DNA from: Chryseobacterium sp. T16E-39
GTDB taxonomy: Bacteria; Bacteroidota; Bacteroidia; Flavobacteriales; Weeksellaceae
Length of the DNA stretch: 64,000 bases
Assembly: GCF_002216065.1 (NCBI RefSeq)
Contig: NZ_CP022282.1
Span: 3,658,001-3,722,000, forward strand
Direction of reading: 5' to 3'
In this document: in pieces, positions 41,885-45,943 of the stretch
Numbering within the stretch: position 1 is the stretch's first letter
How the letters are laid out: every line of letters starts with the position of its first letter
Program-made: the position numbers and the translations under genes
Notes under the pieces: model-generated
Seen by the model: only the letters and a program-made list of their open reading frames with translations
Told to the model about the DNA's origin: nothing
Databases searched by the model: none

Positions 41885-41933
41885 AATTACACAAAGGTGT
41901 AATTGTTTCTGCTTTGTTTTCTGTTGAAATTTG
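41885..41933 (+). promoter_or_regulatory. Palindromic operator and promoter of the response-regulator operon (site 1)
   Basis: Perfect palindrome AATTACAC-AAAG-GTGTAATT (41885-41904). Its right half runs into TTG (41903-41905), which is 20 nt before GAAATTTG (41926-41933), a -7 box with the first T replaced by G. Site 2 (44746-44794) has the same layout and spacing. An alternative reading of the hairpin as the GH35 terminator is possible, but the U-run is poor. Confidence 0.55.
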
Positions 41934-41953
41934 TCATTAACAAAATAACGGAC

Positions 41954-42586
41954 ATGAGCATTTCCATAGCCATAGTAGAAGATGAGAAAAACTACAACAA
42001 TGCGTTGAAGAAAGTCATCAATTATCAAGCTGACATGAAAGTGATTGCTCAGTTTTTTGATGGCAACGAAGCATTAAACAACCTTCCAAAGATTTCTCCG
42101 GACGTAGTAATGATGGATATCCAGCTTCAGGACATGCTTGGAATTGAAATCATAGAAAAAGTACGGAAAGATATGCCAGATACCCAGTTTATCATGTGTA
42201 CGAGTTTTGAAGATGATGAAAAAATTTTCAGCTCGCTGAAAGCTGGTGCAATGGGTTATCTTATTAAGGGAGAAAGTATGGACAAGATTCTCGCCTCTAT
42301 TCGTGATGTGTATAATGGAGGAGCACCCATGAGTTTTTCTATTGCAAGAAGAGTTTTGAACCATTTTGAAAAAAAAACTACCGAAGTACTGGGATTTGAT
42401 GAACTGACCAATCGTGAAAAAGAGATCTTGGAACTTCTTTCTCAGGGTTTGCTATACAAAGAAATTGCGGATCAAAAATGCATTAGCATGGATACGGTAA
42501 AAAAGCATGTCGGAAATATCTATCGAAAACTACACGTGAGCAATAAAGTTGAAGCAATCAATAAATTTAACCATTTTAAAAACTAA
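41954..42586 (+). CDS. NarL/LuxR-type response regulator, 210 aa
   Basis: Two-component DNA-binding regulator. The receiver domain (about 1-120) has the acidic pair in IAIVEDEKNYN, the phosphoacceptor Asp55 in VVMMDIQLQD, and the Lys of LIKGES near the domain end. The C-terminal GerE/LuxR helix-turn-helix (about 148-205) has LTNREKEILELLSQGLLYKE and CISMDTVKKHVGNIYRKL. Start ATG at 41954, since the upstream in-frame ATG at 41903 lies within the palindrome. It is followed 6 nt later by the 251-aa gene and is in one operon with a cognate-looking kinase. Confidence 0.93.
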   Translation: MSISIAIVEDEKNYNNALKKVINYQADMKVIAQFFDGNEALNNLPKISPDVVMMDIQLQDMLGIEIIEKVRKDMPDTQFIMCTSFEDDEKIFSSLKAGAMGYLIKGESMDKILASIRDVYNGGAPMSFSIARRVLNHFEKKTTEVLGFDELTNREKEILELLSQGLLYKEIADQKCISMDTVKKHVGNIYRKLHVSNKVEAINKFNHFKN

Positions 42587-42592
42587 TAAACC

Positions 42593-43348
42593 ATGGAGAC
42601 ATTAAGAACAAGAAGACAGGTTATTGATTTGATATCTGATAACCTAAGAAAGCTAAGTAAAGAAGACTTACTGGCGATTTCATATCTATGTTCATCCCTT
42701 TCCACCATCAATTTTGAAGATAAAGAAAGGGATTTAGATATTGCACGATTACTAAATTTTTATAGAGATCCCGATCCTGTACCAGCGCCTACCGGCGAAG
42801 GCTCAGTTAGAATGTTTAACAGTCAGAGTTTTTCCTATTTACAAAAAGTATTTGTAATCAAGCCTAATGTTGTAGACTTTTTGTTGAAAGAAGGAAGTAA
42901 TAAAATTGATATTTTTTTATTGGAAAGAGAAGTAGGTGGGCGCCCATGCCTTGATATTGCCTATAAGAATTCGGGCGACACGAAATATTATTATACGGAT
43001 GAAGTAAACGGAGGTAAAGTAATGAATGATTTCAGTACGCAAAGAAAACAGTTTGAAGGAAATTTGAAAAATATATTGGATATCAATAAAAATCCTAACG
43101 GACATAAATGTCCAACTAAAATTATAGTAGACAAGGCTGATCTTGAAAAGTTTAATCAATTTAAAACAGGAAAAAACAATCCTCAAGTACATTTAATGAC
43201 GGGAATTAACCAGGTCAGAACCAGCGGTGACTACTATCAAAGAGTAACATTAGTAATGAATTTTGCCAGTGAAGAAGATGGAGTATTTACTCCGGATATG
43301 AGTTATTATTTCGATACCTACCACCTTTGTCCTCCGGGAAGCTGCTAA
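42593..43348 (+). CDS. Uncharacterised protein between response regulator and kinase genes, 251 aa
   Basis: No family recognised, no signal peptide and no membrane segment, so probably cytoplasmic. The helical N-terminus (TRRQVIDLISDNLRKLSKED) is followed by a Pro-rich break (RDPDPVPAPTGEG) and a mixed alpha/beta body (YLQKVFVIKPNVVDFLL, KIDIFLLEREVGGRPCLDIA, VHLMTGINQVRTSGDYYQRV). The C-terminus DTYHLCPPGSC ends exactly on a cysteine. Gene spacing of 6 nt before and 3 nt after places it firmly in the two-component operon. A role as accessory, output or sensed component is inference. Confidence 0.75.
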   Translation: METLRTRRQVIDLISDNLRKLSKEDLLAISYLCSSLSTINFEDKERDLDIARLLNFYRDPDPVPAPTGEGSVRMFNSQSFSYLQKVFVIKPNVVDFLLKEGSNKIDIFLLEREVGGRPCLDIAYKNSGDTKYYYTDEVNGGKVMNDFSTQRKQFEGNLKNILDINKNPNGHKCPTKIIVDKADLEKFNQFKTGKNNPQVHLMTGINQVRTSGDYYQRVTLVMNFASEEDGVFTPDMSYYFDTYHLCPPGSC

Positions 43349-43351
43349 CCA

Positions 43352-43942
43352 ATGATACAAGACTTTATATACTATGCTTTACTGGTAATTTGTCTTGCCG
43401 TTTCGTTCTACAATGAAAAGGCAAGACATAATTACTTTTGGTTATACTTTCTGGTCGTATTACTCTATGAAGTATTAATTTATTTTAAATGGATCGGCGT
43501 TGAAATTTACGCGACCTCCCCGATCGTATATTCTTTATTCTTCATTAATGTTTATCTGAAAGAATTGTATCCGAAAAAACATTTTATAAGATATCTGTCA
43601 AGTGCGATCCTATTAATTGTGGGGATCCTATTATATCCTACTAATAAGGGATACTCTATTCATTTGGGTATTATGATGTCTTTTGTTTATATACTTTGTG
43701 GTCTGATTTGGTTATTTTATCAGTTTAAAAATAATAGTCAGATCCCAATAATATCTAAACAATTCTTTTGGGTGAGTGTATCTCTATTACTCTGGGCTGT
43801 TTTTTTTCTATTTAGGGTCACTCCAATGTATTTGTTTGAAAAGACAGATGATGAATTCCTGGGTGTTCTGAATAAAATATTTCAACTGATTACGATTGCT
43901 TCTTATGTGATTTTCTTTAAAGGACTATTGTGTAAATCATGA
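43352..43942 (+). CDS. Seven-helix membrane protein, 196 aa
   Basis: Integral membrane protein with about seven hydrophobic segments (near 4-20, 27-45, 52-68, 80-97, 103-123, 136-155 and 172-192) and short loops. No family recognised. Its stop overlaps the kinase start (ATGA), so the two are translationally coupled. The kinase has only one membrane helix and no sensory domain, so this protein may act as the sensing partner. This is inference from gene order. Confidence 0.78.
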   Translation: MIQDFIYYALLVICLAVSFYNEKARHNYFWLYFLVVLLYEVLIYFKWIGVEIYATSPIVYSLFFINVYLKELYPKKHFIRYLSSAILLIVGILLYPTNKGYSIHLGIMMSFVYILCGLIWLFYQFKNNSQIPIISKQFFWVSVSLLLWAVFFLFRVTPMYLFEKTDDEFLGVLNKIFQLITIASYVIFFKGLLCKS

Positions 43943-44727
43943 AAATGTTACCAGAAGAAATAAAGCAGACCTACATTATAGCAATTATTGTTATGATGTT
44001 GTTCGTTGGATTTATCATTTTTGTTGTCCTGTTATACAACAGAAAACAACTCTTATACCTCAGGGAAAAACAACTCAGAGAAGCTGAATACCAAAATAAG
44101 TTGCTTCAAAAAGAACTTGAAAAACAAAAATCAATAGAACAGGAAAGGGAAAGAATCTCACATGATATGCATGATGACTTAGGGGCGGGAATTTCAGCAC
44201 TGAAACTACAGGCAGAATTTCTAAAACAAAAAGCAGAGGATGGGGATTTAAAAAATGATATCGACGAGCTCCTGAAAACCTCAGAAGAAATGAATGTTTC
44301 AATGCGCGAAATGCTTTGGAATCTGAATTCTGGAAATGATACTGTAGGAAATTTTGTAAGTTATTCAAAGATATATGCTGAAAATTTTCTAAAAAAGGCA
44401 TCCGTAAAACTTAGTATAAGAGATCAGGATGTCATTAGCCATACGCCGGTATCTGCTGAACTAAGGAGAAATATGTTTTTGTGTTTAAAAGAATCTCTGA
44501 ACAATACTTACAAACACAGTCAGGCCAATCTGATTGAGATTTCATTCTTACAAAATAATGGTGAATTCACCATGGAAATTTCAGACAATGGAATTGGAAT
44601 TAGTAAAGAAATGCCCGAAGGCAACGGACTCCGGAATATGAGAAGAAGGATGAAAGAACTTAATGGTGAATTTCAAATTATTTCCCTGGAAAAAGGAACT
44701 CTTTTAGTTTTTAAAGTATGGATCTAG
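43939..44727 (+). CDS. Sensor histidine kinase, HisKA_3 (NarX-like) type without sensor domain, 262 aa
   Basis: One N-terminal transmembrane helix (about 11-33), a coiled-coil linker (LREKQLREAEYQNKLLQKEL, about 45-72), then the dimerisation/phosphoacceptor domain with His78 in ERISHDMHDDLGAGIS. The ATP-binding domain shows LRRNMFLCLKESLNNTYKHS (N box), EISDNGIGI (G1) and GNGLRNMRRRM (G2). No extracellular or PAS domain fits. Expected partner is the NarL-type regulator at the head of the operon. Overlaps the membrane-protein gene by 4 nt. Confidence 0.92.
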   Translation: MKMLPEEIKQTYIIAIIVMMLFVGFIIFVVLLYNRKQLLYLREKQLREAEYQNKLLQKELEKQKSIEQERERISHDMHDDLGAGISALKLQAEFLKQKAEDGDLKNDIDELLKTSEEMNVSMREMLWNLNSGNDTVGNFVSYSKIYAENFLKKASVKLSIRDQDVISHTPVSAELRRNMFLCLKESLNNTYKHSQANLIEISFLQNNGEFTMEISDNGIGISKEMPEGNGLRNMRRRMKELNGEFQIISLEKGTLLVFKVWI

Positions 44728-44745
44728 GTCTTCTGTCAATAAGAT

Positions 44746-44794
44746 AATCACCCTTTTGTGTAATTGACTGCTGCGTTTTTTAGTGAGACCTTTG
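44746..44794 (+). promoter_or_regulatory. Palindromic operator and promoter of the lipoprotein operon (site 2)
   Basis: AATCACCC-TTTT-GTGTAATT (44746-44765): the right half is identical to site 1 and the left half matches at 6 of 8 positions. The half-site runs into TTG (44764-44766), 20 nt before GACCTTTG (44787-44794). The distance from the right half-site to the -7 box is 29 nt, the same as in site 1. Confidence 0.55.
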
Positions 44795-44814: not shown

Positions 44815-45141
44815 ATGAAAACTACAATTAATAACAGTTTTGAAGATTTCAAACAAACATTAAGCAATAACAATAAATTACAGCAGGAATTTAAAGATAA
44901 TCCCATACAGGCTGTAAACAGTATTGAAGTCAAGAACCCCAAAGAAACGGATACCTGGATATACAGGATCATAGTCTTAATGTTTGGGCTTGCTATTATT
45001 GGAATTATAACCGGTTTGATTATACTTTCCTTACATGAGAATGTGAAACTTAACGAACAGTTAATTACCATTTTCACAGCAATTTCATCGGGAGCTATTG
45101 GTGCCTTAGCAGGACTTCTTGCTCCCTCACCCAACAAATAA
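44815..45141 (+). CDS. Small membrane protein of unknown function, 108 aa
   Basis: The soluble helical N-terminus (NNSFEDFKQTLSNNNKLQQE, then FKDNPIQAVNSIEV) is followed by two hydrophobic segments (about 49-71 and 83-102, TIFTAISSGAIGALAGLLAP). No family recognised. The N-terminal pattern is vaguely like Nif11-type leader helices, but it lacks a cleavage motif. The ATG at 44815 is chosen because the in-frame start at 44764 overlaps the promoter. First gene of a three-gene unit after site 2. Confidence 0.68.
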   Translation: MKTTINNSFEDFKQTLSNNNKLQQEFKDNPIQAVNSIEVKNPKETDTWIYRIIVLMFGLAIIGIITGLIILSLHENVKLNEQLITIFTAISSGAIGALAGLLAPSPNK

Positions 45142-45158
45142 CCTTAAAAACAATAATC

Positions 45159-45365
45159 ATGACTAGAATTATCACAGACTATTTACTAGAGTGGAACATC
45201 AGCTCTAAAAGTGGAAAGATCATCTTGAAATTTACAAGTGCAGGATCTGAAGAAATCATGGAGGATCTCGATTATGAGACATTCACAGCCTTAGCTAATG
45301 TACTTGGAAAAGGTAAAGCCAAATATGACTCAAATGATAACTCAATTTATAATGTAGCGCCATGA
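45159..45365 (+). CDS. Uncharacterised 68-aa protein
   Basis: Small soluble protein (ITDYLLEWNISSKSGKIILK, then DLDYETFTALANVLGKGKAK). No signal peptide or known motif. It overlaps the lipoprotein start by 4 nt (ATGA) and lies 17 nt after the small membrane-protein gene, so co-translation in one operon is likely. Its coding status is supported mainly by this packing. Confidence 0.65.
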   Translation: MTRIITDYLLEWNISSKSGKIILKFTSAGSEEIMEDLDYETFTALANVLGKGKAKYDSNDNSIYNVAP

Positions 45366-45943
45366 AAAATATATTTTTATTTGTAGGAATTACCTTATTG
45401 TTTACTTCTTGTAGTAATCTGCATAAGGCAACATTGGAAGAACTGAAGAATACGACTTCAAATTATCAGATGTCGTATGATGCTATGCGAAGAGGAGCAA
45501 TCGTAAGTATCAAACCGGATGGGAAGATCAACAAAATATTATCTGAAGTACAACCCGATGCTGCTATTGCCAGAACTACGGACATAACAAGTAAGCTGAT
45601 GGGTAAATTGAGTTCAGGAGATAGTGTTTCCGCAGAACAAATGACCAAAATAACAGAAAGCCTATCTAAACTTGGGGAAAGGACTGCTCCGGTAAATATG
45701 CTTAGAGATGCATTGTACAGATTGGAAGAGCATTGCATTAATTTTGAAGAGCAATGCCATGGAGACTTATATTGGAATAGCTTTAATAATATTGTTAATA
45801 ATATCACGACACTTCAAGGCAAAATTTCGGAAACTGCAAAAGAAGAAGCAAATAAGGCTAGTGCGGAAGCCAAATCAGAAAGGGAAAAGACACTTAGAAC
45901 GCTGACCCCTGAAGAACGTAAAAAATATGATTTAACTCCCTGA
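45362..45943 (+). CDS. Lipoprotein of unknown function, 193 aa
   Basis: Lipobox in MKNIFLFVGITLLFTSC (Cys17). The mature part is predicted mostly helical (GKLSSGDSVSAEQMTKITES, APVNMLRDALYRLEEHC) with two further cysteines (HCINFEEQC). The C-terminal tail is highly charged and coiled-coil-like (EEANKASAEAKSEREKTL). No family recognised. Last gene of the unit preceded by site 2, followed by a strong terminator. Confidence 0.75.
   Translation: MKNIFLFVGITLLFTSCSNLHKATLEELKNTTSNYQMSYDAMRRGAIVSIKPDGKINKILSEVQPDAAIARTTDITSKLMGKLSSGDSVSAEQMTKITESLSKLGERTAPVNMLRDALYRLEEHCINFEEQCHGDLYWNSFNNIVNNITTLQGKISETAKEEANKASAEAKSEREKTLRTLTPEERKKYDLTP

Follow-up and report, generated by a model that had tools for sequence, protein, structure and literature searches.

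Two matched promoters and an exchangeable putative sensor cassette at a NarL-type two-component locus of Chryseobacterium: a proposed polymorphic tail-receptor signalling system

Two near-identical inverted repeats, each followed by a promoter-like box, stand in front of two adjacent operons of a two-component locus in Chryseobacterium sp. T16E-39, which raises the question of what they switch on and what the system behind them senses. The locus was analysed in a 64-kb stretch of DNA (the window), where all features given below lie on the forward strand, and was compared with its relatives in other genomes. Site 1 (41885..41904) reads AATTACAC-AAAG-GTGTAATT (whole, AATTACACAAAGGTGTAATT) and precedes the regulatory operon, and site 2 (44746..44765) reads AATCACCC-TTTT-GTGTAATT (whole, AATCACCCTTTTGTGTAATT) and precedes the output operon. 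Both are proposed regulator-binding sites, both were found where the initial annotation had placed them, and in both the right half-site runs on into TTG, as it had described. Its term "identical" is true of the spacing between dyad and box, but not of the spacers, nor of the left half-sites, which are unlike at two positions. A -7-like box follows each site (GAAATTTG, 41926..41933; GACCTTTG, 44787..44794). At both sites 21 nt separate the dyad from the GAnnTTTG box, which starts 22 nt and ends 29 nt past the last dyad base; the 29 nt reported earlier is the distance counted to the box end. In PMC9723704 the sigma-A boxes of Flavobacterium psychrophilum are placed from -12 to -5, and from this placement we infer transcription starts at ~41938 and ~44799 and a dyad centre at ~-43.5, close to the ~-45 first suggested. 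The distance between dyad and box is fixed, and both may be class II-type activated promoters, in which the activator site overlaps the -35/-33 region at a constant distance from the start.

Within the window alone the enrichment of the dyad is suggestive, with three matches at three or fewer mismatches against 0.67 expected, a number equalled in 3 of 100 shuffles. In the whole 4.87-Mb genome the pattern AATNACNCN4GTGTAATT matches sites 1 and 2 only, and its reversed control matches nowhere. Across the genus the dyad pattern was matched in 113 of 173 Chryseobacterium genomes, and the reversed control gave one match in each of two genomes. An ortholog of the regulator is present in 141 of the 173; together with G176, in which the only copy is fused with the membrane protein MP described below, these make 142 genomes, 137 of which were analysed (G071, G159, G165, G166 and G181 were left out). 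Site 1 stands upstream of the NarL-type regulator in 131 of the 137 loci, and TTTG lies exactly 25 nt downstream of the dyad in 129 of these 131 promoters and in 95 of 109 site-2 candidates. Outside Chryseobacterium eight loci keep the regulator; a similar or altered dyad is found upstream of it in seven, and in the eighth (L242) the dyad is found behind the kinase only. Conservation in related genomes, which the initial annotation had named as a check, is thus borne out together with a rigid promoter spacing.

Site 2 follows the output genes. Site 2 with its box was observed in 96 of the 107 loci that have output genes, whereas only 1 of 25 loci without them has it (Fisher's exact test, P = 7e-17); this count leaves out five of the 137 loci, whose fetched stretches lack the enolase end, and all five also carry site 2 and box. 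Among the 32 genomes of the genus without the regulator the dyad pattern is scarce (five matches): one is a decayed remnant of the locus with dyad and box, and the other four have no box. Furthermore, only L240 and L244, both loci of one sister genus, have KKQAGS in the recognition helix, where 132 of the 137 Chryseobacterium loci and the other six outside loci have KKH, the remaining five of the 137 being unmatched by the search expression. All four dyads of L240 and L244 have GTGGAA with CCAC opposite, in place of GTGTAA with ACAC, a single co-variation in which the change of the helix appears to be matched by changes in the dyads. The promoter design, its conservation and the association of site 2 with output genes can be read directly from the compared genomes. 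Control of both operons by the NarL-type regulator, as originally proposed, is strongly supported by the conserved site 1 and by a site 2 that tracks the output genes, and control of the output operon further by the scarcity of dyads where the regulator is missing and by the one co-variation; through the two near-identical switches a single regulator would probably activate both its own sensor genes and the adjoining output genes.

The two repeats could also be explained as terminators, site 1 of the GH35 gene and site 2 of the kinase gene. The site 1 RNA can indeed form an 8-bp hairpin. However, in 77 of 137 loci the sole upstream open reading frame of at least 100 aa within 400 nt is oriented away from site 1, and the site is kept in all 77; this speaks against site 1 as a mere GH35 terminator, which had been named as a refuting case. 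Folding is not clearly better than that of shuffled sequences (z = -1.55 and -1.11, equalled by 18 and 30 of 200 shuffles), no long T-run directly follows site 1, and site 2 is absent from 24 of the 25 output-less loci, where the end of the kinase gene is still present. Termination is therefore an extremely improbable account of the two sites.

The regulator RR (41954..42586, 210 aa) has the expected architecture of a receiver (PF00072, E = 8.2e-23) followed by GerE (PF00196, E = 1.9e-17), both above cut-off. The histidine kinase HK (43939..44727) has HisKA_3 (PF07730, E = 9.1e-13) and HATPase_c (PF02518, E = 3e-7) above cut-off and one predicted membrane helix at residues 13-31, and a Pfam scan recognised no sensor domain in it. 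Between the two genes lie two others, for which we coin the names P2 and MP. P2 (42593..43348, 251 aa) is a hypervariable protein that belongs to no Pfam family and is predicted to contain two beta-alpha-beta-beta-beta units, and MP (43352..43942, 196 aa) is a membrane protein of seven predicted helices in an N-out/C-in, GPCR-like arrangement with a conserved loop predicted outside. Structures were predicted from alignments of 45 of 81 sequences for P2 and 59 of 81 for MP; the P2 body of this locus comes out as folded in the prediction (mean pLDDT 82), and most P2 proteins are predicted to lack an export signal. Mean identity falls from regulator (0.87) to kinase (0.71), MP (0.33) and P2 (0.19).

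P2, MP and the membrane helix of the kinase form a cassette that is passed on as a unit, independently of the regulator. Among 153 pairs of loci whose regulators are nearly identical (score ratio at least 0.96), P2 is unrelated (ratio below 0.15) in 120. The rank correlation with P2 is 0.07 for the regulator and 0.49 for MP, and pairs with the same P2 have their MP group in common in 138 of 165 cases (13.9 expected; at most 29 in 500 shuffles). Residues 1-40 of the kinase are part of the variable cassette: at equal regulator identity, their identity is 0.97 between loci of the same MP (38 pairs) and 0.46 between loci of different MP (114 pairs). The P2 set comprised 143 sequences, 136 from Chryseobacterium and 7 from outside the genus; L252, which lacks P2, contributes none, and L249, whose stretch holds no kinase, was left out.

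One short part of P2 does not vary with the rest. The last ~8 residues, HLCPPGSC at this locus (codons at 43322..43345), follow the MP type even where the P2 bodies are unrelated. With the same MP and unrelated bodies, 6.83 of 9 tail residues are identical (339 pairs), compared to 1.70 of 9 with different MP (8142 pairs), and the maximum in 1000 permutations was 4.99. The sharing ends ~8-10 residues from the C-terminus. Codons differ at identical residues about as often in the tail (0.43) as in MP (0.41), thus it is the protein that is kept. The exchange of the cassette and the match of tail to MP type are seen in the alignments themselves, and such strong divergence of the sensor genes between related bacteria, together with a tail that goes with a particular membrane protein, is reminiscent of a private code for signalling.

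We propose a polymorphic tail-receptor signalling system, whose tail may either be set free as a signal or serve for docking. In it, two promoters built to a single plan (dyad, 21 nt, weak GAnnTTTG box) would be driven by a constant pair of NarL-type regulator and HisKA_3 kinase. The regulator, phosphorylated by the kinase, would bind the dyad at ~-53 to -34, next to the -33 region, and would activate RNA polymerase there, giving positive feedback on the regulator-P2-MP-kinase operon from site 1 and turning on, from site 2, whichever output operon stands behind it. The input would be the exchangeable cassette, in which the predicted seven-helix MP senses for a kinase that has a single membrane helix; MP would have its specific partner in the last ~8 residues of P2, presumably by direct contact, and the state of MP would reach the kinase through the membrane helix that is exchanged together with it. 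Most likely the system reports on self/non-self or population state. This model as a whole, two-promoter control plus an exchangeable tail-receptor input cassette, we consider likely. A further step is put forward tentatively: the locus may represent a new Bacteroidota signalling class, in which a seven-helix GPCR-like receptor, a protein of its own, has the C-terminal octapeptide of the carrier P2 (released or tethered) as its type-specific agonist and acts in trans on a histidine kinase that lacks a sensor, and in which three modules, namely the carrier body, the tail-receptor pair and the output operon, can be exchanged largely independently of each other on one constant regulator and promoter design.

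The output operon behind site 2 encodes S1 (44815..45141, 108 aa, two predicted membrane helices), S2 (45159..45365, 68 aa, no predicted membrane helix) and LP (45362..45943, 193 aa), a lipoprotein by eye from TSCSN after a hydrophobic start. S1 has only a weak match to SLATT_4 (E = 0.018, below cut-off), and LP has only weak matches below cut-off. Among 29 scans of relatives, only three output proteins reach a cut-off: those of L039 and L164 with YLATT (PF20303), accompanied by pYEATS (PF20305) below cut-off, and that of L038 with a trypsin domain. The YLATT family comes from work on conflict systems. At the curated cut-offs the output genes of this locus match neither YLATT, pYEATS nor trypsin. 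Against the PADLOC families of known anti-phage defence systems no match was convincing; the best was that of the helix-turn-helix stretch of the regulator to CARF3 models (E = 2.7e-7), and the others were partial with E = 0.0004 or weaker.

The same observations could be explained by an ordinary autoregulated two-component system answering an environmental cue, with P2 and MP as fast-evolving sensor parts and the tail as the structural end of P2. The receiver plus GerE, the HisKA_3/HATPase_c pair and a dyad at ~-43 of the predicted start are usual for known NarL/FixJ and HisKA_3 systems, and the comparative data fit the autoregulation plus output control of the initial annotation; the cassette and the interchangeable output operons lay beyond what it saw. 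The locus departs from such systems in that its kinase has one membrane helix and sensing apparently resides in separate exchangeable genes, and fast evolution alone explains neither the wholesale replacement of P2, MP and kinase helix beside nearly identical regulators nor a tail common to one MP type across unrelated bodies, which makes this account unlikely. It is quite possible, if short of an even chance, that P2 is a sensor or adaptor working through its body, with the tail merely docking on MP or the kinase and the bodies answering different cues, e.g., invaders or competitors. The predicted fold of the body at this locus, the lack of export signals in most P2 proteins and the turnover of bodies into unrelated sequences, needless for a mere carrier, are consistent with it, as are the YLATT and trypsin domains among relatives' outputs, but the outputs of this locus show no such family and the conserved loop of MP is predicted outside. 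It seems very unlikely that P2 serves the output genes as an immunity protein or antitoxin. P2 and outputs are both variable, and 1 of 45 P2 proteins has a weak match (E = 2e-4) to YxiF, which we take to be an LXG immunity protein; against this, the association between P2 group and outputs is weak (arrangement common to 48 of 471 same-P2 pairs; 26.4 expected; shuffle maximum 50), and P2 is retained in 24 of the 25 output-less loci.

The tail may instead be released as a peptide in a pherotype-type quorum-sensing or kin-signalling circuit like agr or ComQXPA. An agr-type system includes an AgrB-like membrane protease and a small AgrD precursor. The present locus resembles it in its exchangeable signal/receptor cassette and in the cysteine pair of some P2 tails (41 of 143), but differs from it in the classes of kinase and regulator. 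ComQXPA of Bacillus, the closest described pattern that we found, likewise encodes a HisKA_3 kinase and a NarL-type regulator together on one strand. According to PMC4008528, conservation in it falls in the order ComA > ComP > ComQ > ComX, types are polymorphic, the ComX precursor has 52-73 aa with a tryptophan near its C-terminus, and the census reports the system from Firmicutes only. The order here (regulator > kinase > MP > P2) parallels this drop from regulator through kinase and receptor part to signal gene, and the proposed positive feedback on the signal gene and the type-specific tails are also consistent with release. In contrast to ComX, P2 has 251 aa, and it is the body that varies, the tail being constant within a receptor type; the tail of this locus has no tryptophan (some relatives' tails do, e.g., PSDITSLWP and FYNRGQQWP), and the multi-helix membrane region is in a separate gene, MP, with one helix left in the kinase. 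Among the seven proteins of the 64-kb window scanned against Pfam and NCBIfam (for the regulator, the best 25 of 118 NCBIfam matches), no processing enzyme or exporter was found, including a ComQ-like isoprenyl transferase, an AgrB-like protease and an AgrD precursor, and most P2 proteins have no export signal. Release of the tail is accordingly rather doubtful.

If the proposed tail-receptor model is right, a polymorphic signalling locus exists in roughly four in five genomes of a large genus. Among the matches listed in open-licence full text, no paper on this locus was recognised. The model makes testable how a separate seven-helix protein drives a kinase with no sensor domain, whether private types of communication are set by a short protein tail, and how one unchanging promoter can serve as a socket for unrelated output genes.

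The seven-helix N-out/C-in bundle predicted for MP may be shared with GPCR-like receptors. MP has no sequence match in the PDB; that of this locus belongs to no Pfam family, and one of 59 MP members has a weak match to DUF4118 (E = 0.005). In a second-look structural alignment all 50 of the 50 matches listed for the predicted structure are GPCR-type receptors, in a score range that may mean a common arrangement. Relatives of MP are also found in other genera of the family.

Four genes follow site 1, encoding RR (a NarL-type response regulator), P2 (251 aa, no family found), MP (a membrane protein of 196 aa) and HK (a histidine kinase of the HisKA_3 class); the genes behind site 2 encode S1 (108 aa, two predicted membrane helices), S2 (68 aa) and LP, a lipoprotein as judged by eye. 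An RR ortholog at E 1e-70 or better is present in 141 of 173 Chryseobacterium genomes. Across the taxonomic family, 165 of 320 genomes carry a member of the MP family, and 8 of 33 genera are represented. Both dyads were found as the initial annotation had described them, site 1 at 41885-41904 and site 2 at 44746-44765, and the equal dyad-to-box spacing of the two modules was recovered, with the −7-like boxes at 41926-41933 and 44787-44794. The window by itself provides weak evidence for the dyad: with up to 3 mismatches it was seen 3 times against 0.67 expected, and 3 of 100 shuffles equal that count. Across the whole genome (4.87 Mb), AATNACNCN4GTGTAATT matches two places only, site 1 and site 2, and a reversed control pattern has 0 matches.

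The dyad was sought upstream of orthologues, where its conservation had been proposed as a check. The comparison covered 137 of the 142 genus loci, among them the window's. In 131 of the 137, a site 1 with up to 3 mismatches stands 36-70 nt upstream of the RR start codon, and 3 of the 6 others carry a dyad about 370-390 nt upstream. At this distance, in loci L048, L053 and L060, a small ORF separates RR from the dyad, as if something had been inserted between them. Of the 131 site-1 promoters, 129 have TTTG starting exactly 25 nt past the dyad and 111 have GAAATTTG as the box; every position of the right half-site and the following G is identical in 130 or 131, except the second position, which is T in 109. 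The usual form of site 2 differs from site 1 and reads AATCACCCNTTTGTGTAATTGAC. When site 2 was scored as present only if dyad and box were both found, it was present in 96 of 107 loci with a kinase-enolase gap of more than 450 nt versus 1 of 25 with less (Fisher P = 7e-17), and in 5 of 5 loci without enolase in the fetched stretch. Six of the 11 exceptional large-gap loci keep the dyad and have no TTTG at 24-26 nt. Site 1 could also be read as a terminator of the gene upstream. In 77 of 137 loci, however, the sole upstream ORF of at least 100 aa within 400 nt faces away from site 1, which is retained in every one of the 77, thus the terminator reading is ruled out for site 1.

The pattern was matched in 108 of 141 genomes with RR versus 5 of 32 genus genomes without RR (E 1e-70), the lists being matched by hand. 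One of these five matches (L085, genome G084) is a decayed copy of the same locus, with an RR fragment, dyad and box in place and HK not found; the remaining four have no box, and include G176, whose own locus is a fused one (L252). A kinase search at E 1e-50 found none in the other 31 RR-less genomes, an empty result that is weak for want of a positive-control genome. The recognition helix is KKH in 132 of 137 genus loci (5 fall outside the search expression) and in six of the loci outside the genus, and KKQAGS in the two remaining ones, L240 and L244, both of one sister genus. In each of the four dyads of these two loci, GTGGAA faces CCAC where the usual dyad has GTGTAA facing ACAC; three of the four are good palindromes, and in one the outer part of the left half is poorer. 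Recognition helix and dyad thus co-vary naturally, in one lineage. That RR binds and activates at both sites, taken as a claim on its own, is very probable.

Mean protein identity in the first 30 genus loci, including the window, falls from 0.87 for RR and 0.71 for HK to 0.33 for MP and 0.19 for P2. Among 143 loci, 7 of them from outside the genus, the rank correlation of similarities is 0.07 for RR-P2, 0.07 for RR-MP and 0.49 for P2-MP, thus P2 and MP do not follow RR and vary jointly, as a hypervariable cassette. Unrelated P2 are found in 120 of 153 pairs with nearly identical RR; the window's nearest relative by RR (G119) differs in P2 and MP, yet the window's P2/MP type is found again in G116, G117 and G157. 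At a score ratio of 0.5, the 143 loci form 80 P2 and 28 MP groups, and both members have the same MP group in 138 of 165 same-P2 pairs (against 13.9 expected and no more than 29 in any of 500 shuffles); at 0.3, one MP group takes 129 of 143 loci, and the test is hardly informative (471 of 471 pairs versus 383.9 expected). The first 40 residues of HK, with the membrane helix, are part of the cassette and the remainder hardly so: identity for same versus different MP is 0.97 versus 0.46 over these residues, 0.95 versus 0.91 over residues 41-160, and 0.85 versus 0.81 beyond 160. Some loci depart from this organization. In L252 (G176, oriented 2161-2877), RR and the end of P2 form one fused gene with the tail NSLCPNQCP, and no output genes follow; the arrangement resembles the product of a deletion between the RR and P2 genes. 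L241, L245, L247, L248 and L250 (one sister genus) have an MP and kinase pair in another neighbourhood, the fetched stretch showing neither regulator nor P2 nor dyad, and L242 has such a pair upstream of a complete locus.

P2 proteins are diverse, yet the majority resemble one another at the C-terminus: the endings of the 143 P2 comprise 87 LxP (or MxP, WxP), 41 cysteine pairs and 15 others. Between unrelated P2 bodies, 6.83 of the last 9 residues are identical within the same MP group (339 pairs, representing 25 pairs of body groups) versus 1.70 between different groups (8142 pairs), and the tail class agrees at 1.00 versus 0.34. In an MP group of 24 loci, P2 bodies of 6 groups share a single tail pattern, and in another MP group the tail is YYDQGSLEP in 11 of 11 loci. 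The sharing stops 8-10 residues from the P2 C-terminus. A linkage gradient as its source was rejected, because conservation in MP is lower over the N-terminal 20 residues (0.65), which lie nearer in the DNA than the P2 body does, than over the C-terminal part (about 0.8). Codons at identical residues differ at 0.43 in the tail and 0.41 in MP; as the tail codons differ as often as those of MP, selection keeps the amino acids. In a few loci, additional P2-like genes stand between kinase and site 2, and their tails differ in type from the P2 tail of the same locus: L108 4987-5706, recognised by its tail, and L051 6207-6812 and L178 3709-4314, found by profile. A lipoprotein signal is assigned by rule to 24 of 143 P2 (e.g., L042, L140, L183), and pairs with and without it within one MP group number 104, or 90 with doubtful rows set aside.

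These sequence patterns are the support for a proposed polymorphic sensor in which the P2 tail would be the specific partner of MP. The tail may dock on MP or act as a released peptide, and both fit the patterns: docking is favoured by the lack of an export signal in most P2, and a signal by the type structure and by the feedback proposed for the P2 gene. The locus resembles ComQXPA (PMC4008528) in some respects, but it lacks three of the features that define that system and is not classed as such. The regulator described in PMC5399024 belongs to the OmpR family, and that system is not this locus.

The output genes fall into 43 arrangements, the empty one counted, and are weakly linked to P2: the arrangement is the same in 48 of 471 same-P2 pairs (26.4 expected, shuffle maximum 50). 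P2 is present in 24 of 25 loci without output genes and absent in 1. Most output families, the window's own included, do not reach the Pfam cut-off. Among the scanned relatives, output proteins of L039 and L164 match YLATT above its cut-off and pYEATS below its own, and one further output protein has a trypsin domain above the cut-off for that family. The YLATT and pYEATS families originate in work on conflict systems. Neither term was found in the available portions of two conflict-system papers (PMC7159879, PMC8195603). In L251, output-type genes (122 and 355 aa) lie between P2 and MP, not behind the kinase.
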